Made by a program: the position numbers and the translations under genes
Shown: piece by piece, positions 1,087 through 13,307 of the stretch
How the letters are laid out: every line of letters starts with the position of its first letter
Position numbering within the stretch: position 1 is the first letter of the stretch
Source: Strigomonas culicis
Taxonomy: Eukaryota; Euglenozoa; Kinetoplastea; Trypanosomatida; Trypanosomatidae
Direction of reading: 5' to 3'
DNA length: 15,020 bases
Assembly (NCBI GenBank): GCA_000482145.1
Contig: AUXH01000477.1
Location: 1-15,020, forward strand
Notes under the pieces: generated by a model
Told to the model about the DNA's origin: nothing
What the model saw: the letters and a program-made list of their open reading frames with translations, nothing else
The model's database searches: none

Positions 1087-4000
1087 CTAGCTGCCATTCT
1101 GCCGGTCCGCGGCGGCGGGCGCCGAACTGGCATCGGACGGCGCGCGAAAGTGCGTCATCATGGTGGCCATCCCCGCCGACTCCGAAAGCCGCGGCGTGGC
1201 GGAGGAACGGGAGACGTCGTCCTCCGGCTCCTCCGGAAAGACATAGTCGGAGCGGGGAGGCTGCGTCCACAGCGCGTCGATGACGTTGCCCGCCGCGGAC
1301 CCCGCCTCGGTACTCGCGCCGACACTGCCGCTGTCTTTCCCCTCAACGGCGGAGACGGGTGCGAGGCTCTGCGCGGAGGGAACGGCCGAGTGCGCGCTCA
1401 GCTCGGCTGACCGCGCGGCGTGCGCGTCGCCGGTCAGCGCCGACGCGCCGCTGGTGTCCGATCGGTGGCCGCTCTTCTCCAGCGTGCTCTGCGACGGCGC
1501 GCTGGTGACCGACGGGAGGCTCGCCGCGCTGCCGTCGGACGGCGCCTTGCCGCGGAGGCCGCCGAGAATGGCCAAGCCCTCCGTCTTGAGCCGGCTGCGC
1601 AGGCTCTGCACCTCCGCCGCGATGCTGCTGTTCTGCCCGGAGACCTCCTGCGTGATGACCCGCATCCGTGACAGCTCCTTGTCAAGCGTCTCGATCTCCT
1701 TGTGCAGCATCGTCACGCGCAGCCGCTCGACGGACTCCCGGTCCTCCTCCTCGTCCTCCTCACCCGCCGCCGGCACCAGCGTCGGGCCCGTGCCGTGGAT
1801 GAGCTGCGCGACGACGGTGCTGCCGCGCAGGCGGCCGGCGGCCAGCTCCGCGGAGACGACCTTCTGCCGCACCGCCTCCCCGTAGAGGACGAGCTCCTCC
1901 TCCAGCAGCCGCATCACGCGCGGCACCGGCTGCGCGGTGCCGCCCATCTGCTCGTCGAGGAAGTTCAGCTCCGTGTGGTACACCTCGTAGCGGTAGGCGA
2001 CGCGGATGTCGGACACGCGGCTGCGCTGTACCTCATTGCCGAGCGTCGAGCGCAGCTCGTACAGCGGCCCGAGCGCCCGCTGCTTCCACGCCGGCGGGAA
2101 GCCGCACTGCAGCACACTATTCCGCGCGATCTCGGAGAGGTCGTTGAACTCGAAGCGCCACAGCTTCGCGGCGAGGGAGTACTCCTCCACGAGCGGCTCG
2201 CGCGTGAAGTGGAAGTAGAGGGGCTGGCTCGTGGCGAGGCTTACGTTGAGCCCGCGGTGGAAGAAGAGCGGGAACGGGTTCTCCAGGTAGGCGCAGGCGC
2301 CCGCCGTGTTGCTCAGCGGCGACATGGCGACGCCCAGCTGCGTGATGTAGTAGATGTACTCCATCACCGGGTGCTTCGCGAGCGTCACGCCGTGGCTGAT
2401 GCCGTTCGCGAGCAGGAAGGCGCCGATGAGGTGGTCCACACCGCCCTTCTCGCCGCTCTGCGGCCGGAAGGTGAAGGTGCCCAGCCCGCGCGACGCGCGG
2501 AACTCGTTGAGCGTCGCGATGTTCGCCCACAGGTAGTACAGATAGAGATTGTAAGGCGGGTTGAGGTCGCTGTCCCAGTCGTGCGGGTACGTCTCGGAAA
2601 GCGGCAGGTCAATCTTGCTCTCGTCGTCGCAGCAGTCGAAGCCGGAGACGTGGGTGAGGAAGTAATGCAGTTTTGTGTCGTTGGCCGGGTGCAGGCTGAT
2701 CTCCCACAGGGGTTGGAAGAGGTTGTGCAGGTACTCGCCAAAGTTGCGCACCTCGCGTTGCTGCCGCAGCCGGCGGTACTGCCGCGAGAAGCAGACCATC
2801 CACCGGCACTGCGTGTTGGCCATGCCGTAGCGGTCGAACCAGTGGCCCAGCTCGTGCCAGTCGTCCGCGCTGCCGCCCTGCATGATCAGGCGGTACTCCG
2901 CAAAGCTGTACACGTCCTCCTTGTAGATGTCCAGTGTGCGCTTCGTCAGCTCCGCAAAGTAGCGGCCCTGCAGGAAGTTGAAGGGCGAGAGAAAGATGGT
3001 GTGTAGGTCGTTGTGCGTGTGGAGCTGATGGTGCAGCTCGTCCACCGTCACCTGCGTCACGTCGATGTGGTAGCGGCCCAGTAGCTGCCGCAGCGTCACC
3101 GGCTGGCCATCCTCCTCAAAGACGACATCGTCGCCGTGGTTCAGCGCCTTGTCGACGAAGAACTCCAGCAGGGTGCGCGCGTTGTGGCCTGAGTCAGTCT
3201 GGATGTTCGTGTCCACCTTGTGTGCGGTGAAGAAGTCGCGGTTGTTCCACTCCTTCTCTTCCTTCACGCCGCCTTCCTTCGCGATGTTCATGGAGATGTG
3301 CAGCAAGAACTTCTGCTCCAAGAGGTTCAGCCGGTGCATCGCGAGGCGGCGCAGCGACGGCATGCTCACGACGCGGCGCACGTGCTCCACGTCGCGGATG
3401 AAGTCGCGCACAGACGGGATGAAGGACGGCCACGACGGCGTCTTGCCGACGCGTGACAGCAGGAAGACCCCGTAGTAGTTGTTGTACTCCCACAGCGACT
3501 CGTTGAACGTCTTGTCCGTGAAGACGTCCTCGACGTTGACGTCCTCGACGCGGAAGATGGAGTACTTCTTGCGCAGAAAGATGGTGTAGCGCAGCGCCGA
3601 CACCGCCTCCGTCGCAGGCCGCAGCTCGTGTGTCTGCCCGGTCGCGGTGTACACGTCGATGCGCGGGTACACGACGCTCTGGTCTGTGTAGTTCATGCGC
3701 CGCGCCTGTCGGAACTGCTGGACGACATCGGACACCTGGATGCTGCCGGAGAAGGGCATCGCGTTGACGACGGTGGGCGTCTGCCCTTTTTTGGCGACCT
3801 TGGCGAGCACAAGGTTCATGAGCGTCTGCTCGTGCACGAGGCACTCGTGGCGGTACTGCAGGCGGTAGTCGCACACGCACGAGCGCTGCATGTCGTTGCC
3901 CGCGCTGCCGAGCGTCTGGAAGCCCTCCCCCAGCCACAGCTCCTTTATCTTGTGCGAGAAGCTGCTGTTCAGGACGCTGTTCCGCGCGAGCTCGCAGAGG

Positions 4001-6372
4001 TCGACCGGCGAGAGGCTGCGCACCTTCAGCAGTGTCGCGTACTCCTCCAGCAGCGGCTGGTCCAGCCGGTGGTGGAAGTGCAGGGGGTCGCTCGTCGCGA
4101 GCGAGACGAGCATGCCCTGCTTGAAGTACGTCACGATGGGGTGCTCAAAGTACGGTGTGCGCATCACGTTGTCCCGCAGCGGCGACATGACCACCCCGAC
4201 GCGGCTGTACACGTAGAGGTACTGCATGATCCAACTCTTGTGGAGGGAGCTGACGTGGTGCACCACGTCCCCGAGGAGGTAGCCGGTGACCAGCTGGTCG
4301 AACGCCGGCGGCGGCTCGCGCACCGCGACGCTGAAGCGCAGCGCGTGCAGGCCCAGCCACTGCCGCAGCGCGTTGAGCACCGCCACGTTGCACCACGCAA
4401 AGTAGGCGAAGTAGAAGTCGCTGCAGTTCTTCTTGTAGTGCACCTTGTCCGGCGACACCATCTCGCTCGACAGGTTCTCCATGCGTATTACCGGCTGGCA
4501 GTCCACGTGGATGACGCCCGTGGTGTTGAGCAGCAGCGCGACGGTCCCCCAGTACGGGTCCTTCGGGTACAGCGTCGCCATGAAGAGCGGATAGAAGATG
4601 TACCGCAGCTGCTCCCCGATCGTCTTGCAGCGCAGGGGCAGCACGTTCGGCCCCATCAGCGGCGGCCGGCGCTTCAGCGAGAGGATCCACATGTTCCGCT
4701 GCATCTTGTGGAAGCCCTGCCGCCGCGTCCACGCCGCGAGCCGCGGCACCTCCTCCGGGTGGTGACCGTAGAGATCCAGCATCATCTCCGTCGCCACGCT
4801 CGGGCCGCGGCCGAACTCGTTGCGCTCGAGCACGCTGCGCACCAGCGTCCCGCAGAGGTCGCCGCGGCACGGGCCGTCGGTGGAGAGCACCGCCTGCAGG
4901 AAGCGGGCGCCGAACTGCCCCGACGGGTTGCACGTCGCGTCCAGCATGTCGTACCGGATGAACTTGTTGCGGTACAGCGTGGGGTGCATCCCCAGGCCCT
5001 CCATCGTCACCTCCGTCGGCTGCATCACACCGCCTTGCTGCAGGTACCCCTCCATCGTGACAAACTGCCCCGGTTGGCTGGGGTCGGCGAAGAGCGGCGT
5101 GTTGGGCTCCTTCGTCACCGTCTTGGTGATGAGGTCCATGAAGAGCGGCGCCGGCACACAGGTCTTCATGTTCAGCATGTTGTCGACGCGCGTGTTCTTC
5201 GCATACACGCCGCCGCCCTTGATGTAGGCGTCAAAATGGCTCTCCAGCTCGTTGTTGAGAAGCGAGTAGAGCTCGAACTTCTCGAGGAGGGCGGTCAGCC
5301 GCATGCGGGCGGTGGACAGGCACGGGCCGTTCTCGATGGCGCCGTAGACGGCCTGCATGTCGTGCACGTACTGCTTCCACGGCACGAGCTCCGTCATCAT
5401 GCCGGCGAACCGGTACACGCCGTCCTTGTACGTCAGCGTGGGGGCTGCCACCGGCGCCTGCGGTGACCTGGGGGACTCGGGCGTGTCCGCCACCGAGGGC
5501 GAGGCGGCGCCAGACGCGGGCTGCTCGTCCGTGCCCATGGAGGCGGCGGTCGCGGACGGCAGGTCGCCGGACCTGTCCTTCGGGGAAGGGACGCGCGGCG
5601 GCGGCGACGACGTGAGCCCGTACTCGTCGCTCTCCGTGAGCTGCTTCAGCTCCTGGTCGTTGCGGGCGGTGTAGGGCAGCAGCGCGATGTGGTCGCGGAA
5701 AAACTGGTTGAGCTGCTCCGAGGAGGGGCCCTCCTTCTGCCCCTTATCGCGCGCCTTGTAGCTCTGCCGCATCGCAATCACGCTGGCGAGAAGCTCGGCG
5801 CACTTGCCGTAGTCCGCATCGCCCTCGTCGCCGTCGATCATGATGCGGTGGTAGGTGCGCTGCGGCCCGGCCGGCGCGTGCGCCTTGTGGGAGAGCCGGG
5901 CCTTGGTCGGCACCATCGGCTCGCTCTCGCCCGCGGGGTGGTTCACGCTGCCGCTGCTCGCATTTAAGTGCGCCGCGAAGTGGTTGCGGTAGTCCGCGCG
6001 GTCGTAGCCGTCGCCGCCGCCGCCGGGGAGCTGTGCGGTGGGCCCCGCCGCCGCCGTGCTCCGTGCATTGCCGTCGCGGGTAGAAGAGACGCGCCGTCGG
6101 TCCTCCGCGATGGAGGCGGAGTGCCGCGCGAGCATCTTGGCGACGACCTGCGACGTGCCGACCATCGTCGACCCCGCGCTCAGCGACGCGGTGGCGCTGC
6201 GCGCGCCCTGGACACTGCCGCGTTGCAGCTCCAGCGGGTTGGTGCTCACGCTGTCGTGGGTCGTCCGCAGGGCCCCGGGGAGGCTGAAGTCAGGCGCCTG
6301 CGAACCCTGGGGCACGGTGGCTTGCGATGCAAGGCGGGAGGAGGTGGAGTCGCTTAGTCGTTCACTCATCAT
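1087..6372 (-). CDS. Tandem AMP-deaminase-like protein, both domains predicted catalytically dead
   Basis: This 1761-residue protein has two AMP deaminase domains in series. Residues 1-310 are largely disordered, but around 171-206 they carry the family's N-terminal element (QRTYHRIMIDGDE, then a helix with MRQSY). Domain 1 spans about 314-830 and domain 2 about 925-1440. Both keep the helical lead-in (RL..LE.KF), MSPL, PL(L/V)EEY and ARNSVL; domain 2 also keeps GFD..DDESK and NPPYNLYLYYLWANIA. AMP deaminases bind a catalytic metal through HxH, the His of RPHCGEAG and the first Asp of STDDP. Here these positions read M399/N401, V684 and S761 in domain 1, and N1056/Q1058, Q1305 and S1382 in domain 2. 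Domain 2 retains Glu1308 and His1327; domain 1 retains only His706 and Asp762. An acidic stretch at 1538-1544 leads into a coiled coil to about 1602, then a disordered Ser/Ala-rich tail. Canonical enzymes have one domain. A structural or regulatory role is inference. Confidence 0.85.
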   Translation of the reverse strand: MMSERLSDSTSSRLASQATVPQGSQAPDFSLPGALRTTHDSVSTNPLELQRGSVQGARSATASLSAGSTMVGTSQVVAKMLARHSASIAEDRRRVSSTRDGNARSTAAAGPTAQLPGGGGDGYDRADYRNHFAAHLNASSGSVNHPAGESEPMVPTKARLSHKAHAPAGPQRTYHRIMIDGDEGDADYGKCAELLASVIAMRQSYKARDKGQKEGPSSEQLNQFFRDHIALLPYTARNDQELKQLTESDEYGLTSSPPPRVPSPKDRSGDLPSATAASMGTDEQPASGAASPSVADTPESPRSPQAPVAAPTLTYKDGVYRFAGMMTELVPWKQYVHDMQAVYGAIENGPCLSTARMRLTALLEKFELYSLLNNELESHFDAYIKGGGVYAKNTRVDNMLNMKTCVPAPLFMDLITKTVTKEPNTPLFADPSQPGQFVTMEGYLQQGGVMQPTEVTMEGLGMHPTLYRNKFIRYDMLDATCNPSGQFGARFLQAVLSTDGPCRGDLCGTLVRSVLERNEFGRGPSVATEMMLDLYGHHPEEVPRLAAWTRRQGFHKMQRNMWILSLKRRPPLMGPNVLPLRCKTIGEQLRYIFYPLFMATLYPKDPYWGTVALLLNTTGVIHVDCQPVIRMENLSSEMVSPDKVHYKKNCSDFYFAYFAWCNVAVLNALRQWLGLHALRFSVAVREPPPAFDQLVTGYLLGDVVHHVSSLHKSWIMQYLYVYSRVGVVMSPLRDNVMRTPYFEHPIVTYFKQGMLVSLATSDPLHFHHRLDQPLLEEYATLLKVRSLSPVDLCELARNSVLNSSFSHKIKELWLGEGFQTLGSAGNDMQRSCVCDYRLQYRHECLVHEQTLMNLVLAKVAKKGQTPTVVNAMPFSGSIQVSDVVQQFRQARRMNYTDQSVVYPRIDVYTATGQTHELRPATEAVSALRYTIFLRKKYSIFRVEDVNVEDVFTDKTFNESLWEYNNYYGVFLLSRVGKTPSWPSFIPSVRDFIRDVEHVRRVVSMPSLRRLAMHRLNLLEQKFLLHISMNIAKEGGVKEEKEWNNRDFFTAHKVDTNIQTDSGHNARTLLEFFVDKALNHGDDVVFEEDGQPVTLRQLLGRYHIDVTQVTVDELHHQLHTHNDLHTIFLSPFNFLQGRYFAELTKRTLDIYKEDVYSFAEYRLIMQGGSADDWHELGHWFDRYGMANTQCRWMVCFSRQYRRLRQQREVRNFGEYLHNLFQPLWEISLHPANDTKLHYFLTHVSGFDCCDDESKIDLPLSETYPHDWDSDLNPPYNLYLYYLWANIATLNEFRASRGLGTFTFRPQSGEKGGVDHLIGAFLLANGISHGVTLAKHPVMEYIYYITQLGVAMSPLSNTAGACAYLENPFPLFFHRGLNVSLATSQPLYFHFTREPLVEEYSLAAKLWRFEFNDLSEIARNSVLQCGFPPAWKQRALGPLYELRSTLGNEVQRSRVSDIRVAYRYEVYHTELNFLDEQMGGTAQPVPRVMRLLEEELVLYGEAVRQKVVSAELAAGRLRGSTVVAQLIHGTGPTLVPAAGEEDEEEDRESVERLRVTMLHKEIETLDKELSRMRVITQEVSGQNSSIAAEVQSLRSRLKTEGLAILGGLRGKAPSDGSAASLPSVTSAPSQSTLEKSGHRSDTSGASALTGDAHAARSAELSAHSAVPSAQSLAPVSAVEGKDSGSVGASTEAGSAAGNVIDALWTQPPRSDYVFPEEPEDDVSRSSATPRLSESAGMATMMTHFRAPSDASSAPAAADRQNGS

Positions 6373-6484
6373 TGTGGGTGTCCGCTTACTCTAAAAAAAA
6401 TGTAAAGTGATTTCTGTTCTGTTGCTGTTGGTCACTTTCAAACTATCTATAGATGTATTGTGGAATCACAATGTGGTTTCTTTG

Positions 6485-6515
6485 CTTTTGAGAATGAACA
6501 AAAGAGAAAACGAGT

Positions 6516-6547
<32 letters not shown>
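6485..6547 (-). promoter_or_regulatory. Predicted polypyrimidine tract and spliced-leader acceptor for the tandem AMP-deaminase-like gene
   Basis: The minus strand reads as a pure CT repeat over 6547-6519, continues mostly pyrimidine to about 6495, and reaches its first AG at 6486-6485. No ATG lies between this AG and the start at 6372, giving a 5' untranslated region of about 112 bases. This supports the ATG pair at 6372/6369 as the start. Confidence 0.6.
6519..6547. repeat. AG/CT dinucleotide microsatellite, 14 units
   Basis: An uninterrupted AG run on the plus strand (CT on the transcribed sense strand). It forms the core of a predicted polypyrimidine splicing signal and is likely to vary in length between strains. 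Confidence 0.95.
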
Positions 6548-6550
<3 letters not shown>

Positions 6551-6841
6551 GAAAGAAGGGGAGCCTTTGCATTCCTACTGTACAAGCAGCATCTTCTGGT
6601 ACCCATGTACACATTCTTGTATTTATGAAGTACGGAAGAGAAAAAAAATGACGTTAGGAACAGCAGTCCGCTAAAAACAAAAGAGAAAACCGAAAGTGCA
6701 CGCCTTGCGATACGAAGGCCCAAAGAACACCAAGAACAACAACGACAACAAAAAAAAAAAGTTGGGAAGAAAAGCCACCTTATACACATATCCCAATGCA
6801 TCAATGGCCACCCCAACAGTCGATAAAAGACGGAGGAGGTA

Positions 6842-8074
6842 CTACGCGCACTTCTTTTCCTTCTCCCGCAGCACGCGCGCGTACTTCACCTCATCCACCA
6901 TGAAGCGCGCCCCGAGGAACACGCACACGATCACCGGCAGCAGCACCGTCGTGTGCGAGACGATGCTGTGGTCCCACGGCACGTACAGCTGGGGCGTCAT
7001 GAGCGGGTGCAGCTGCAGGTCGTCCGCCGCCTTGGCGGCGTGCACGTACGGCGGTAGCAGCCGCCCCTGCACCCCGCGCCGGCGCGCCTCGTCCGCCGCG
7101 CGGACGGTGAGGTCGTACAGGCGGTCGTACGTGCCCTGCACGGAGCCTGGGATGTGGATGTTCGGGTGCTCCTCCAGCGCCCTCTGCGTGATGGCGACCG
7201 AGCGGACCGCGTACCCGCAGGCGTCCCTGTGGCGCCGCGCCTGCCACGCGGTGAGCGTGTCCAGGTGGAAGTTCGGCACCTCCAGCGCGGCCGCGAGGAC
7301 GGAGAGCACCGCCCGGCGCACCTCCGCGCCGAGCGCGGCCCGGTTCGCCGCCGTCAGCGACGTCGTGACGACGCAGAAGGCGTTCCGGCCTTGCACGGTC
7401 GCGCACCACACGTGCGGCGCGGCCTCGTTGCGGTTGCTGTCGTCCGCGAAGAACGAATCCGCGAAGAAGGCGCGCGGGAGGTGGAAGATGCTCAGCGCGA
7501 GGAGGTCCAGCTCCGTGTGCGGGTCGGGGGAGAGCGCGTGCTGCAGCGTGGGGAGGCCCAGCTGCTGCTGCACGACGAGCGGGCCCAGGGCCGCGATGGC
7601 CTCCTTCCCCGTGCGGAAAGGCTTCTCGGGCGCCGCCACATCCTCCGCCGTCTCCTCCGATGCCGTTGCCGCCGGTGGAAGCAGCTGCTCCGCCGGCCGC
7701 AGCGTCGGGTCCAGCAGCACGTGGTGGAGCAGCATGCGCTGCTGCGGCTGCAGCAGCACATCGTGTTGAGAGGCGACCAGGCGCTCGTCGACGGCCACAA
7801 GGGCCCCCTGCACCGCATCCAGCAACCCCTCCTCCCCCAGCCACACCGCCATGCCGTAGTAGGACGGTGGGAGGTGCAGCGGCGGCCGGCTGGCCGCGCC
7901 GCAGTCCAGCGCGGCCAGCACCGTGCTCAGGTGCAGCTCCGAGTCTTCGTACGTGAAGGTCTTGTAGTGCACGCCGCAGGAGATGAGGAGGCCGAGCACC
8001 ACCAGGAGGAAAAAGAAGCGGATCGTGTTGCGGCTTGGGAGGGTATGTGTGTCACTCACGTCCTCGTCTGCCAT
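6842..8074 (-). CDS. PIG-S/TTA1-like subunit of the GPI transamidase complex
   Basis: A 410-residue protein with a membrane segment at residues about 18-35, a large central domain, a second membrane segment at about 373-391 and a short charged tail ending REKEKKCA. PIG-S/Gpi17, and the trypanosomatid subunit TTA1, have this arrangement: both ends anchored in the ER membrane, with the bulk of the protein in the lumen. They belong to the complex that attaches GPI anchors to proteins. Local resemblance supports this: YKTFTYEDSEL just after the first segment recalls the WK.TT..YRA.LP region of PIG-S, and LMTPQLYVPWDHS just before the last segment recalls its LYFP.(D/E)H element, followed by a hydrophobic stretch and a Lys/Arg-rich end. 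The start is the ATG at 8074, the first after the predicted acceptor. The frame continues upstream, but only through spacer sequence. No disruption is visible. It could instead be an unrelated double-anchored luminal protein. Confidence 0.65.
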   Translation of the reverse strand: MADEDVSDTHTLPSRNTIRFFFLLVVLGLLISCGVHYKTFTYEDSELHLSTVLAALDCGAASRPPLHLPPSYYGMAVWLGEEGLLDAVQGALVAVDERLVASQHDVLLQPQQRMLLHHVLLDPTLRPAEQLLPPAATASEETAEDVAAPEKPFRTGKEAIAALGPLVVQQQLGLPTLQHALSPDPHTELDLLALSIFHLPRAFFADSFFADDSNRNEAAPHVWCATVQGRNAFCVVTTSLTAANRAALGAEVRRAVLSVLAAALEVPNFHLDTLTAWQARRHRDACGYAVRSVAITQRALEEHPNIHIPGSVQGTYDRLYDLTVRAADEARRRGVQGRLLPPYVHAAKAADDLQLHPLMTPQLYVPWDHSIVSHTTVLLPVIVCVFLGARFMVDEVKYARVLREKEKKCA

Positions 8075-8141
8075 GGCGTCGTGTAAGGGCAGGTGCAAAA
8101 GAAACAACAAGAAAGAACAAGAAATGAAAAATTTGTATAAT

Positions 8142-8197
8142 CTCAAAAAAAAACTGTAAAAGAGGAGAAGGACGAAGATGAGGGGAAGAAGAGAAGG
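8142..8197 (-). promoter_or_regulatory. Predicted polypyrimidine tract and spliced-leader acceptor for the PIG-S/TTA1-like gene
   Basis: The minus strand over about 8197-8159 is a long pyrimidine stretch, followed by AG at 8155-8154 and a second AG at 8143-8142. No ATG lies between these and the start codon at 8074, so the leader would be about 70-80 bases. An in-frame ATG at 8242 lies upstream of the tract and should be absent from the mature mRNA. Confidence 0.6.
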
Positions 8198-8375
8198 AAT
8201 GCTACAGAAAGGGGAAGCATTCGTAAACGATACAGAGACCATTCGATCACAAAAGAAAGGGGGGGGAAGAGAGAGAAAGCCACGTAGACACTTCGTTATG
8301 AAAAGCAACTATCAAAAGCGTTGAAGCAACGCATGTTGATGATGACAACGCAAAACCGATCCATGCGCATTGGCA

Positions 8376-8443: not shown

Positions 8444-10894
8444 CTACAGCTCCCGTGTCGCGCCATAAAGGTATATATTCCCCGCAGCCGTGACCCGCGC
8501 CGCTGCTTGCCTACCCGCTTCCTCTGGCGGCTGTCGGGTCGGATCCAGCGGCGGCGGCGACGCGCCGCTCCGCTGGCTGGTGTGCAGCGCGCAGAGGGTC
8601 GCCGTGCGCGGCGAGAGCGGGCCGCCCGAGTGGCTCCGTGCGCGCGGGGGGCGGCGCGCCGGTGAGCCGCGGTCGGACGAGAGACAGAGCGACGTGTCCA
8701 CCTCCCCAGCGCCGCCGGCGAGCTGGCTCAGGGAGAGCACGCGCGGGCGGTAGGCGCCGGCGCTGTCCGGCGTCTCCGGGCTCCTGCTGGCGCGCACCCG
8801 CGCTCCGTCCTCGTGGCGCTGCCGCACGGGGCTCCGGCGGACGTGGTAGTCTAGCGTTTTCCGCTCCACCGTGCACACCGACCGCGGCGAGAGCTGGGGT
8901 CGGAAAGTGCACTGCTGCGCCTCCTCCTCGAGCAGCGCGGCGCGGTGACCGCGGCGGCGCGCCTGCTCCCGCTGGTCGCGCGCCTCCTGCCGCGCGAAGA
9001 AGCGGTCCGCGCGCCAGCTCGCGCCGCCCGCCGGCGGCAGCGCCTCGTCGTCGTGCAGCGACAGGTCCACGGCACCGTCCGCGCCGGGGGACCCGCGCGG
9101 CGGGCCGCCGTGGGGCCCCGCCGCGTCCACGCCGCGCGCGGCGAGGATGGCGCGGCTTTGGGCGTTGATGCGCGGGCGGAAGGTGCAGCCCTGCAGCGCC
9201 GCCGCCGCCGCGTGCGCCTCCGCCTGGCGCTGCCGCGCCACAGGGCCAACCCGCTCCCGCTGCGCGTAGAGCACCTCGAACACGTTGTCCAGGTCGATGG
9301 TGGAGGCCGCCGACGATGTGGGGGCCGAGGGGGGGCACGGCATGAGGCACTCGTCGTCGTGCGACCTGGTGCAGCCGTCGGCCTGCCGCTTCGCCGCGGC
9401 GCCCTTCCCTCCCCCCTGCGCGGGCACAGACCCGCTGAGGGGCGAGAGGTCCAGGCTCAGCAAGCGCGCGCCGTCCGGCGCCGCGCCGTCCGCCCGCGGC
9501 GAGGGGACGGCCGCCGCCTCCGACGCGTCCCGCGGCGCGCGCGGCGACGGTGCCTCCCGCTGCCGCAGCTGCTGCGTGCCGTGGAGGTGCGGGCGGAACA
9601 GGTCCCGCCGCTCCGCCTCCTCCCGCGTCTCGCGCCGGTGCTGCGCCGCCGCCACACGTTGCTGTGACTCCTCGTAGAGACGGAGAAAGACCGGGTTGAG
9701 CAGCGGCCCGTAGGTATCGCGCTGAGGCGCGCCGCGGGGGCTCGCGCCGGCGGCGCGGGGCGCGCTCTGCGTGCGACGCAGCCTCTCCTTCTTCGCCTCC
9801 GACGGGGGCGGCTGCCGGTCCTGCGCCGCCCGCTTCCGCTCCATGTAGGCCGCGAAGCGCTCCTTCCAGCCCTTGACGGGGCCCTTGTGCGCGGGCTCCG
9901 CCGCCGGGGCGGAGGTGCTCCGCCGCGTGGCCTTCCGCGCCGGCTCCGCCTGCCGCAGCCGCGCGGCGTCGGCGGCCTGCGAGCGGCGCCGCGCGGCGTC
10001 CGCCTGCCGCGCCCCCTGCACCTCCAGGAACTCGTTGAAGCTGCGGTACGCCGGCCGCAGCTTCTGCGAGCGCGGCGACAGCGCCGGCGCGAAGGTGCAG
10101 CGCTCCCGCTCGGCGGCCTGCGCCGCCGCCTGCTGCAGGCCGCGCTCGCGCGCGCTGGCGGCCGCCCGACGGTCCGCCTCCGCGTAGAGCCGATCGCACG
10201 CCTTCTCCTCCTGCTGCTGCTGCTGTTGCGGCTGCTTGGGGCGGGGTGCGTGCCTGTCGGCGGCCCTACGCTGGTCCTTCGCGTCCCTCTCGCGGCGGTC
10301 GTCCGCCGGCCGATCCGTGGCGCGGGTGGAGGCTGCGGCCGCAGGAGAGGGCGGCGCGTTGATCTGCGGCCGGAAGGTGCAGCGGGCGCTGTGCGCGCGC
10401 TGCAGCCCCGCCTCGTGCGCCTTCGCCCGCGTCTCCTGGCGGCGCGTGCGCGCGGCTGCCTCGTTGTAGAGCGCCTTCTGGCGCGGTGTGGGGCCCTGCG
10501 CGCGCGCGCTGAGCGCCGGCGCCGGGCCGCTGGGTGGGGGTGCGGCCGCCGCCGGCGCGCGGCGCGGCCGGTGGGCGGACAGCGGCGACTGCTCGACCCG
10601 CTGCCACTGCGGCGCGGCCGCGCCCACGCCGTCCGGCGCCGGCGGCGGAGCCGCAGCGGCGGTGTGCAGCTCGTACTTGCCGGTCGGGCGCGCGCGGCGG
10701 CCGGTGGTGGCGGCGGCCCCGTCCCGCGCCTCCGTCTCCAATTGGATCACCTTCAACAGTATGGGGTGCGGCGACGAGGAGGACGCGGAGGACGTCGAGG
10801 CAGACCGCCCCGCCATCGCCGCCGGACGCTCCTCCTCCAGTGCTGCTACCGCGGCCAGAGGGGCAAAAATGCTCTTGATATCTAACGACAGCAT
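8444..10894 (-). CDS. Uncharacterised disordered protein with five CTFxP-type motifs, possibly cytoskeletal
   Basis: An 816-residue protein very rich in Ala, Arg, Pro, Ser and Gln, predicted mostly disordered with basic helical stretches. A short motif recurs: CTFRPQIN at 172, CTFAPALSPRS at 266, LFRPHLHG near 432, CTFRPRIN at 570 and CTFRPQLSPRS at 662. The third copy lacks the Cys. Each motif follows a charged Arg/Glu/Gln-rich segment, and the spacings fall roughly into 92-94 and 138-166 residues. Similar Cys-Thr-Phe-x-Pro motifs occur, from general knowledge, in many uncharacterised trypanosomatid proteins, some of them cytoskeletal or flagellar, so a cytoskeletal role is a guess. There is a six-Gln run at 223-228. 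The start is the ATG at 10894, the first after the predicted acceptor; the frame extends 20 codons further upstream but offers only a TTG there. I see no known enzyme domain, signal peptide or membrane segment. Confidence 0.85.
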   Translation of the reverse strand: MLSLDIKSIFAPLAAVAALEEERPAAMAGRSASTSSASSSSPHPILLKVIQLETEARDGAAATTGRRARPTGKYELHTAAAAPPPAPDGVGAAAPQWQRVEQSPLSAHRPRRAPAAAAPPPSGPAPALSARAQGPTPRQKALYNEAAARTRRQETRAKAHEAGLQRAHSARCTFRPQINAPPSPAAAASTRATDRPADDRRERDAKDQRRAADRHAPRPKQPQQQQQQEEKACDRLYAEADRRAAASARERGLQQAAAQAAERERCTFAPALSPRSQKLRPAYRSFNEFLEVQGARQADAARRRSQAADAARLRQAEPARKATRRSTSAPAAEPAHKGPVKGWKERFAAYMERKRAAQDRQPPPSEAKKERLRRTQSAPRAAGASPRGAPQRDTYGPLLNPVFLRLYEESQQRVAAAQHRRETREEAERRDLFRPHLHGTQQLRQREAPSPRAPRDASEAAAVPSPRADGAAPDGARLLSLDLSPLSGSVPAQGGGKGAAAKRQADGCTRSHDDECLMPCPPSAPTSSAASTIDLDNVFEVLYAQRERVGPVARQRQAEAHAAAAALQGCTFRPRINAQSRAILAARGVDAAGPHGGPPRGSPGADGAVDLSLHDDEALPPAGGASWRADRFFARQEARDQREQARRRGHRAALLEEEAQQCTFRPQLSPRSVCTVERKTLDYHVRRSPVRQRHEDGARVRASRSPETPDSAGAYRPRVLSLSQLAGGAGEVDTSLCLSSDRGSPARRPPRARSHSGGPLSPRTATLCALHTSQRSGASPPPLDPTRQPPEEAGRQAAARVTAAGNIYLYGATREL

Positions 10895-11534: not shown

Positions 11535-12848
11535 TTAGAAGCGCAGCCGCTTGCTCTGCTGCCCGCCATCTCGCGACGTCATCTCCGGGCCGTCGGACGT
11601 GGTCACGGGGCCGGCCGCGTGGACGCCGTCGCCGCCGACCTGCCAGAAGGCGACGACGCCGTCCTCGCTCGCGGTGACCAGCTTGTCCGCGGCGATGCCC
11701 ATCACGACGCGCGTCATCTCACGGTGCACGTTGACGGACGGCAGCACCGCGGTCTCCTTCGTGCCGTAGTGCAGCACCTCCAGCACCCCCGCGTTGCCGT
11801 CATCGTCGCGGACGCCGCGCATGAGGTACGGCGCGGCTGCGGCGCCGGGCAGCTGGAACCAGTCGACCATGTAGGACGAGAAGTCGGGCCGCTCGATCTT
11901 GTCCTCGAGCTGCGTCGTGACGTCCGCCGTGGGGAACCAGTAGGCGTTCTCGCAGCTGCCGACGATGCCGACGCCCTGGCAGTCCTCGAAGTAGTGCATG
12001 CGGTTGGCGACCTCGCCGCAGCGGGTGGCCGCGAGCAGCATATCATCCTCCGCCTCGCGCAGGTCCACGAAGTTCACCATGAGGTCCTCGCCCGCGCTGC
12101 AGAGCTGGTGGCCGCCGACGAACTGCAGCGCCGTGATCTCGTCCGTGTGGAGGCGGTCGACCGAGTAGGCGAACTTGCCGGCGGCGGGCGGCGCGGCGTG
12201 CCGGGGCCCGGTGGGGAAGGTCGGCAGCTGCCGCAGGTCCAGGACGTGGATGTCCGTCCCCCACGAGGTCGCGAGGAGATTGCCGTCGTGCGGGGCGAGG
12301 GCGATGCAGCAGCACCGCGCGTGGTAGCGGTTGAAGTCCAGCGCGTTGCCGTAGACGCCCTTGAGGCCCTTGTTGCTCTCCTCCTTGCGGCTCCCGCCGT
12401 CCCCGCCAGAGCCCTCCGGCGCGTCGTGCGGCAGCGCGGGATGCTCCAGCAGGCGCTGCTGCTGCTGGTGGTTGTGCTGCTGCACGAGCGAAGGCATGGA
12501 GACGGACTGCGCCATGCGCCCCTGGCGGGTGTCGTACAGCACAATGACGCCGTCCTCCTGTGCGGAGACGAGTACGTGCGGCTGCGTGGGGCTCGCCGCG
12601 ACGGCCGTGATCTTCTGTGTGTGGTAGCGCAGCTCCTGCAGCAGGGGGAAGCCCGGCGCGTCCACGTTGTACAGCCGGATCGTGTGGTCGTGGCAGGCGA
12701 GGGAAAGGACGTGGTGGGCGGCGCCGTAGCCGCCCGCGGTCGGCGCGGCGGAGGCGAGGTTGAGGCAGCAATCCATCGCGCAGACACCCTCGTCCTGCTG
12801 CTGCGCCTCGGTCACCGGCGGGAGGTGGAGCGTGTGTAGCAGCCGCAT
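11535..12848 (-). CDS. WD40-repeat protein resembling WDR89
   Basis: A 437-residue beta-propeller protein. Recognisable WD-type blades are at about 42-62 (ACHDHTIRLYNVD), 76-108 (ITAVAAS..LVSAQEDGVIVLYDTR), 178-206 (LLATSWGTDIHVLDLR), 234-265 (HTDEITALQF..CSAGEDLMVNFVDLR) and 376-404 (LVTASEDGVVAFWQV); the weaker segment at 280-370 (NAYWFPTADVTT, then LEVLHYGTK) probably supplies further blades. This last arrangement and the order of repeats resemble WDR89. A low-complexity insert with NHQQQQ and a Gly/Ser/Lys/Glu stretch at about 120-165 interrupts the propeller. The protein ends in a basic KRLRF. WD40 propellers are scaffolds for protein complexes; no partner can be read from the sequence. 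The start is placed at the ATG at 12848, the first after the acceptor at 12908-12907. An upstream in-frame ATG at 13061 would add 71 residues translated from the polypyrimidine tract. Confidence 0.8.
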   Translation of the reverse strand: MRLLHTLHLPPVTEAQQQDEGVCAMDCCLNLASAAPTAGGYGAAHHVLSLACHDHTIRLYNVDAPGFPLLQELRYHTQKITAVAASPTQPHVLVSAQEDGVIVLYDTRQGRMAQSVSMPSLVQQHNHQQQQRLLEHPALPHDAPEGSGGDGGSRKEESNKGLKGVYGNALDFNRYHARCCCIALAPHDGNLLATSWGTDIHVLDLRQLPTFPTGPRHAAPPAAGKFAYSVDRLHTDEITALQFVGGHQLCSAGEDLMVNFVDLREAEDDMLLAATRCGEVANRMHYFEDCQGVGIVGSCENAYWFPTADVTTQLEDKIERPDFSSYMVDWFQLPGAAAAPYLMRGVRDDDGNAGVLEVLHYGTKETAVLPSVNVHREMTRVVMGIAADKLVTASEDGVVAFWQVGGDGVHAAGPVTTSDGPEMTSRDGGQQSKRLRF

Positions 12849-12906
12849 GAGGCAGGGCGCGGCGGGGGGTGCTCTCCGTATGGACCTTTGTGTGCAGAAA
12901 ACAGAG

Positions 12907-12980
12907 CTGCCAAGTGAGTAAGATAGACAGGGGTGGAAGAGATGGATGAAAGGGGAAGAAGGTGGGGGATGAGAGCGTAG
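12907..12980 (-). promoter_or_regulatory. Predicted polypyrimidine tract and spliced-leader acceptor for the WDR89-like gene
   Basis: The minus strand over about 12976-12913 is strongly pyrimidine-rich, followed by a GGCAG acceptor ending at 12907. No ATG occurs between it and the start at 12848, giving a leader of about 58 bases. It rules against the upstream ATGs at 13061 and just below it. Confidence 0.6.
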
Positions 12981-13307
12981 CGTGTTGATATGTCGGATGC
13001 CGCGGGTGGTAACAGAGACAGGGTCCGTGGACATGCAGTCCATCTTCATCACTGGGTTCATTACAGCGTGTGCGCGCTTTTTCTTTTCGGTTTTGCGTTA
13101 AGCCTATCGTAAGTAAAACAAAGCAAAAGTGTGTGTATGTGTTTTTTTTTTAAAGTCAGCGTAACAAATAATAATGATGAGACAAACGTATACGCATTAC
13201 AGTAACAAACATTTATATATAATATGTGTGCAAAGTAAAAGAGTGATAAGAGTGTCACCTTCATTAACCTACGTATAGTACAACAACAAGCGAGAGGGGG
13301 GAAGCCC

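Follow-up and report, generated by a model that had tools for sequence, protein, structure and literature searches.

A tandem AMP deaminase-like protein of Strigomonas culicis without zinc ligands in either domain, a predicted pseudoenzyme conserved in trypanosomatids

The window, a stretch of 15,020 nucleotides of the Strigomonas culicis genome (contig AUXH01000477.1), codes on its minus strand for a protein of 1761 amino acids with two AMP deaminase (AMPD)-like domains in one chain. The open frame extends from an ATG at 6372 to 1087 and has no internal stop, in agreement with the original prediction, and 94 % of its third codon positions are G or C. The protein was affiliated to a group of orthologues named clade A in the following. 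Features are listed with their positions in the window; active site positions follow the numbering of the Arabidopsis AMPD chain.

1087..6372, minus strand: tandem AMP deaminase-like gene (clade A), 1761 aa; open frame, PF19326 matched twice, relatives, GC3 of 0.94
3826..5376, minus strand: AMPD-like domain 1, residues 333-849; HMM domain matches, PF19326 score of 258.4 bits when the genome was searched
1966..3408, minus strand: AMPD-like domain 2, residues 989-1469; HMM domain matches
5170..5178, minus strand: first metal motif of domain 1, M399-x-N401 instead of His-x-His; alignment
4312..4326, minus strand: A683 and P687 of domain 1 in the columns of His659 and Glu662; alignment
4087..4092, minus strand: S761-D762 of domain 1 at the place of Asp736-Asp737; alignment
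3199..3207, minus strand: first metal motif of domain 2, N1056-x-Q1058 instead of His-x-His; alignment
3001..3033, minus strand: residues 1114-1124 of domain 2, site of the deleted substrate loop RFDKFNxKYNP; alignment
2449..2460, minus strand: Q1305 of domain 2 at the ligand His659 and E1308 as the retained catalytic Glu; alignment
2392..2394, minus strand: H1327 of domain 2, the retained catalytic His681; alignment
2224..2229, minus strand: S1382-Q1383 of domain 2 instead of Asp736-Asp737; alignment
1597..1701, minus strand: heptad-like, perhaps coiled-coil stretch, residues 1558-1592, C-terminal to domain 2; custom heptad score with z of 4.7, reached by 0 of 60 shuffles
6373..6841, minus strand: long pyrimidine (CT) tract upstream of the gene; sequence

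The pyrimidine tract is located as expected ahead of a trans-splice acceptor and may have a role in trans-splicing. Other minus-strand frames of the window code for 466 aa (6842-8242), without a Pfam match and with an N-terminal part that appeared hydrophobic by eye and is perhaps membrane-anchored, for 816 aa (8444-10894), also without a Pfam match and with several copies of a CTFRPxxxxxS-like motif recognized by eye, and for 508 aa (11535-13061) with a WD40 repeat match.

Both domains belong to the AMPD family, as had been proposed. The Pfam family PF19326 (AMP_deaminase) was matched in two stretches of the protein with a total of 733.8 bits, a score above the equivalog cut-off of TIGR01429 (726.3). 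Databases name these tandem proteins AMP deaminase, and the passing of this cut-off shows how such proteins can obtain the name. The reference frame for the family was EC 3.5.4.6 with PF19326, TIGR01429 and the structures 2A3L and 8HU6; human AMPD2 and Arabidopsis AMPD were the solved relatives identified by sequence search. Structure prediction yielded a model with a pLDDT of 89.0 and a pTM of 0.86. The modelled domain 2 superposed on Arabidopsis AMPD at 2.0 Å and AMPD was the best structural match; in the match list, domain 1 was aligned to adenine and adenosine deaminases, and the AMPD chains were aligned to domain 2. As the fold comparison came without a residue-level table, the assignment of the metal site rests on sequence alignment. 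By prediction the AMPD fold is preserved in both domains; most of the conserved framework of the family is present in domain 2. The N-terminal region of the protein is long and poorly conserved.

Site residues were read from an HMM alignment of all domains, anchored on the Arabidopsis chain. In 2A3L we take His391, His393, His659 and Asp736 to be the zinc ligands, Glu662 and His681 to be catalytic, and Asp737 to be the second aspartate. At the positions 391, 393, 659, 662, 681, 736 and 737 domain 1 presented M399, N401, A683, P687, H706, S761 and D762, and domain 2 N1056, Q1058, Q1305, E1308, H1327, S1382 and Q1383. None of the four zinc ligands was kept in domain 1 and none in domain 2. The catalytic pair Glu662 and His681 was retained in domain 2 only, domain 1 having P687 and H706 at these places. 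The earlier claim that all eight ligand positions are changed was confirmed, and seven of its eight residue numbers agreed with ours; the residue given there as V684 is A683 in our alignment, one residue off, and neither of the two is a ligand.

Substrate binding was affected as well. The loop RFDKFNxKYNP is absent from domain 2 in the aligned rows of the window protein, L. donovani and T. equiperdum, and domain 1 of the window protein reads MLDATC at the position of the KFxxKY loop. According to the excerpted text of PMC3042610, the ribose and phosphate of coformycin 5'-phosphate are held by the loop residues K, F, K and Y in a homology model on 2A3L; as the numbering in that work differs, these residues were assigned by motif. 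Ninety-seven columns were near-invariant in 96 intact AMPD domains, and 76 of these were kept by the window domain 2 and 81 by the clade-A majority. The columns lost in clade-A domain 2 are concentrated at the ligands and in the loop 459-469 with K481, S515, Y517 and Q546. Overall, the window protein shares with AMP deaminase the predicted fold, the extent of the domains and, in domain 2, the majority of the conserved framework residues, but has two domains per chain, no zinc ligands in either of them and no substrate loop in domain 2. We consider it very likely that the protein has no AMPD activity. Because the KFxxKY loop is deleted and K481 and Y517 of domain 2 are replaced, the canonical pose of AMP and canonical AMP sensing are unlikely. 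Nucleotide binding, regulation and scaffolding of an active AMPD had been proposed as roles. The first, as far as it concerns the canonical site, was weakened by the missing loop and a nucleotide sensor of this kind was demoted from first choice, while the regulation or scaffolding of an active AMPD stayed in consideration.

A profile search of the genome (17.7 Mb, 670 contigs) revealed four tandem AMPD-like genes, affiliated to the clades A (the window gene), B (C420), C (C116) and D (C147). By site residues, both domains of the window gene are dead. That it is the only dead paralogue was ruled out, as clade B is dead in both domains, too. The gene of C420 is located at G000:C420 ~12300-17012 (locus L010). 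Its domain 2 presented T,R,S,E,Y,D,S at the seven positions, with Thr at 391, and the near-fixed signature of clade B is N,R,S,E,Y,D,S. In the following, 40 clade-A and 28 clade-B proteins were counted, which are cluster representatives, many of them metagenomic, and do not present a species count; P0204 and P0205 of clade A and 15 further proteins nearest to clade B stand outside these counts. Clade B kept Asp736 in 26 of 28 proteins and had Tyr for His681 in 27 of 28, the reverse of the pattern in the window protein. Clade C (C116, P0071) shares with the window protein the two-domain layout, the dead domain 1 and, in 22 of 29 tails, a heptad-like character, but all seven site residues of domain 2 were present in 29 of 29 proteins. 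C116, dead in domain 1 and intact in domain 2 (HHHEHDD) as judged by residues, was identical to the Strigomonas culicis protein P0071 in 1450 of 1450 residues. The residue pattern makes clade C the likely active enzyme.

Clade D has the two-domain layout and the degenerate domain 1 in common with the window protein, but the ligands of domain 2 are kept. In the place of Asp737, Gly was present in 21 of 26 proteins and Cys in 5 of 26, C147 having HHHEHDG, and with this replacement the substrate preference may differ. C147 (locus L009) was treated as one merged domain and counted in domain 2 of clade D only; it was read from the start of the locus with 2076 aa, and as the open frame has 2173 aa, the N-terminus may be longer. 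Among the clade D proteins, a part of P0123-P0155, is P0141, whose names include LmjF.13.0980. The tails of clade D often end with SKL, SRL or SQL, and the T. cruzi row P0127 ends with SRL. A glycosomal AMPD with SRL has been reported in T. cruzi (excerpt of PMC7082770). The peroxisomal-type tails fit this report. Clade D is apparently glycosomal, and a different compartment may be common to the clades A, B and C.

The replacements in domain 2 of clade A were nearly uniform: Asn391 was present in 38 of 40 proteins, Gln659 in 39 and Asn736 in 37, together with Glu662 in all 40 and His681 in 37. Position 393 was occupied by His in 22 and by Gln in 12 proteins, the window protein having Gln, and Ser at 736 was restricted to the window protein and one other. 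Twelve of the 40 proteins, including that of the window, had lost all eight ligands; in domain 2 alone, none was kept in 18 proteins, one in 19 and two in three. The ligand positions of domain 1 varied more among the orthologues than those of domain 2. Conservation of at least 90 % in both clade A and 41 intact domains was observed for 161 columns, and 13 of these were fixed for different residues, including 391, 659 and 736, which are all three ligand columns among the 161, as well as 734 and 710. The enrichment of ligand columns had a hypergeometric value of 4e-4 in a test that was chosen after seeing the data. Identities in domain 2 between the window, Leishmania and Trypanosoma rows were 72-73 % in clade A versus 82-88 % in clade C, thus domain 2 is less conserved in clade A. 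As replacements of like kind were repeatedly present among the orthologues, the change of the ligands is more than chance, and the fixed replacements together with the high identity indicate that clade A is a selected pseudoenzyme, changed under constraint rather than by decay. The suggested search for orthologues with like substitutions was hereby successful in other trypanosomatids, and the proposed selection on the frame is supported by orthologue identity and recurring site replacements. On a side branch near the base of clade A, P0037 has retained His393 and His659 and may represent an intermediate, but its sister P0035 has Gln659, so that a later change back is also possible.

A decaying gene or an assembly error could mimic a loss of ligands, and the variation of the domain 1 ligand positions between orthologues would fit. 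However, the frame has 1761 intact codons with 94 % GC3, identity to its relatives among the matches listed reaches 63 % over the 1161 residues 330-1490, and similar replacements were present in independent genomes. This explanation has next to no probability and was rejected on the orthologue evidence. Another chemistry or another metal site would be conceivable on the basis of His393, Glu662 and His681 of domain 2, conserved in 22, 40 and 37 of 40 proteins. The window protein, however, has Gln at 393, no ligand left and no substrate loop, and we consider such a catalyst very improbable.

Protein searches covered the best 120 of 231, the best 120 of 147 and the best 120 of 133 matches. Among the matches listed, clades A and C occurred together in at least 12 named organisms: T. 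grayi, T. melophagium, T. cruzi, T. vivax, T. conorhini, T. congolense, L. donovani, Porcisia hertigi, Phytomonas EM1, Phytomonas Hart1, the organism of the window, and T. equiperdum (A) with T. brucei equiperdum (C). By these sequence matches clade A is present across trypanosomatids. For Angomonas, Novymonas and Bodo saltans, clade C and no named clade-A protein was among the matches listed. No clade-B protein was named for the T. brucei group among these matches, so that clade A may not need clade B.

A FastTree phylogeny of 370 domains (five of 375 were omitted due to too few aligned columns) supported the domain 2 clades A (0.997), B (0.946), C (0.835) and D (1.0), with A and B as sisters at 0.894 and P0059 outside. 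P0059 is intact and carries the label of the PhM_4 transcriptome, which is presumably from a prokinetoplastid. In a smaller phylogeny (IQ-TREE, 74 domains), for which the seven site columns were removed, SH-aLRT values were 100 for A, 99 for B and 94 for a group of A, B and the intact P0059, the order within this trio being left open; the C group was not a single clade if the PhM_4 rows were counted in, and the D group had a support of 58. The trees differ, and catalysis in A and B may have been lost once or twice. With a FastTree support of 0.982, domain 1 of the window protein was placed in a clade of 157 domain-1 sequences, among them Diplonema papillatum P0057 (SRNEHDD). Of the four ligands, none was kept in 99 of these, one in 54, two in 4 and never more than two; 65 of the 157 proteins had a fully intact domain 2. 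Being common to all 157 sequences, the loss in domain 1 predates the window gene. The step of the window gene itself, common to clade A, is the loss of the site in domain 2.

Tails were analysed with a simple custom heptad score and 60 shuffles per tail. All shuffles were beaten by 28 of 32 tails of clade A (33 proteins, one tail being too short), 23 of 23 of clade B, 22 of 29 of clade C and 0 of 26 of clade D. In tail-tail comparisons hhalign gave probabilities of 70.6 for A-B, 22.4 for B-C and 2.7 for A-C; this profile comparison did not support a tail domain common to A and C. The window tail is unlike the peroxisomal-type tails of clade D. The heptad-like tail, its difference from the clade D type and the long, poorly conserved N-terminal region would suit a structural or moonlighting protein, e.g. 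of a cytoskeletal or other assembly, that uses the AMPD fold as a mere scaffold and leaves AMPD activity unaffected. In this case the ligand positions should drift, yet three of four in domain 2 are nearly fixed for one residue each, and we regard a structural function as quite unlikely.

The fixed site may also be seen as a stand-alone ligand sensor, in which the zinc site of domain 2 would have become a metal-free polar pocket of Asn, Gln, Glu, His and Asn for a purine or another metabolite, with the signal relayed by the remainder of the protein. At several positions of the pocket a new residue has become fixed instead of drifting, and Glu662 is invariant in all 40. In purine-starved Leishmania donovani AMPDA-32 (LinJ.32.2690) was increased at 48 h, and AMPDA-04 (LinJ.04.0270) was among the proteins that did not rise (excerpt of PMC3937319). 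In L. donovani, the proteins of the clades A, B and C are encoded on contigs of 1.556, 0.477 and 2.086 Mb, respectively. Set against chromosome sizes, these lengths and the affiliation of LmjF.13.0980 to clade D suggest by elimination that AMPDA-32 belongs to clade A and AMPDA-04 to clade B. If so, the rise of AMPDA-32 reported in the excerpt of PMC3937319 would fit a purine-responsive role, but the assignment is one by elimination, and the deleted KFxxKY loop with the replaced K481 and Y517 makes the usual binding of AMP, as described in the excerpt of PMC3042610, unlikely. A sensor acting alone is in our opinion unlikely.

A partnership with the active paralogue remains as the preferred explanation. 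Clade A would most likely bind the intact paralogue, because its predicted fold is kept, metal ligands and loop are lost, a new site is fixed and the paralogue C116, with HHHEHDD in domain 2 by residues only, is encoded in the same genome. In this model clade A, unable to deaminate AMP after the loss of zinc ligands and substrate loop, with Glu662 and His681 remaining in domain 2, would form a hetero-oligomer with the active cytosolic clade C via AMPD-type subunit contacts and the coiled-coil-like tail. It would then set the activity, stability or place of clade C, comparable to the prozymes of trypanosomatids. The occurrence of A together with C in the named organisms and the heptad-like tails in A, B and C are in favour of this model. 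For the full model of a double pseudoenzyme as non-catalytic partner of an active paralogue we see an even chance.

Precedents support the idea. A prozyme reportedly exists also for the trypanosomatid PRMT. Dead paralogues activate two enzymes of the trypanosomatid polyamine pathway, as stated in the excerpt of PMC3663545. The prozymes (AdoMetDC prozyme, DHSp, PRMT prozyme) are like clade A conserved dead paralogues, and the respective genomes also encode an active paralogue; for the prozymes, activation of the partner has been measured, whereas clade A is known here from sequence and predicted fold. Several observations weaken the partner model. The tails of A and C have no detectable homology, and two dead clades, A and B, would have to be explained by one partner. 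Clade C may need no activator, because its domain 2 is fully intact, and in Angomonas, Novymonas and Bodo saltans it was listed without a named clade A among the matches. Furthermore, the inactive purine-salvage paralogue APRT2 of T. brucei was judged unlikely to be a prozyme in the excerpted part of PMC8836349.

The AMPD fold and family and dead paralogues in trypanosomatids are already known. Our search of the open-access literature, covering titles and the beginnings of abstracts, found no description of AMPD pseudoenzymes; most subscription journals were outside this scope. A conserved dead paralogue predicts a prozyme-like subunit in the purine metabolism of these parasites, beside those of polyamine synthesis and arginine methylation. 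If the assignment of AMPDA-32 and AMPDA-04 to the clades A and B holds, both AMP deaminases profiled in the excerpt of PMC3937319 would be pseudoenzymes. That work maps two Leishmania genes, probably of these clades, as AMP deaminases; if they are dead, the AMP deamination in purine salvage maps may sit on the wrong genes. A more far-reaching proposal is that AMP-to-IMP conversion in trypanosomatids is performed by a hetero-oligomeric AMPD, in which only one of the six domains of A, B and C, the clades without a glycosomal tail, would be catalytic. The window protein would be an essential regulatory subunit, reading with its fixed metal-free pocket a metabolite other than AMP and switching the active subunit. 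This proposal is doubtful; if true, a further, independently evolved prozyme system would exist in purine instead of polyamine metabolism.

Degenerate AMPD domains were also observed elsewhere. P0096, P0100, P0107, P0108, P0112 and similar proteins are tandem AMPDs outside the domain-1 clade, with an intact domain 1 and a partly dead domain 2, in which Glu662 is often replaced by Ala, Ser or Val and Asp737 by Asn or Ala. P0096 and P0108 are named Planoprotostelium, and the order of dead and intact domain is opposite to that in the group of the window protein; in the FastTree phylogeny, the degenerate domains from both groups were placed together. P0202 and P0203, from the sources EG_transcript and GGOE transcript, presumably Euglena, presented Y,H,H,-,N,H,F in domain 2, apparently a further, independent loss of AMPD catalytic residues.
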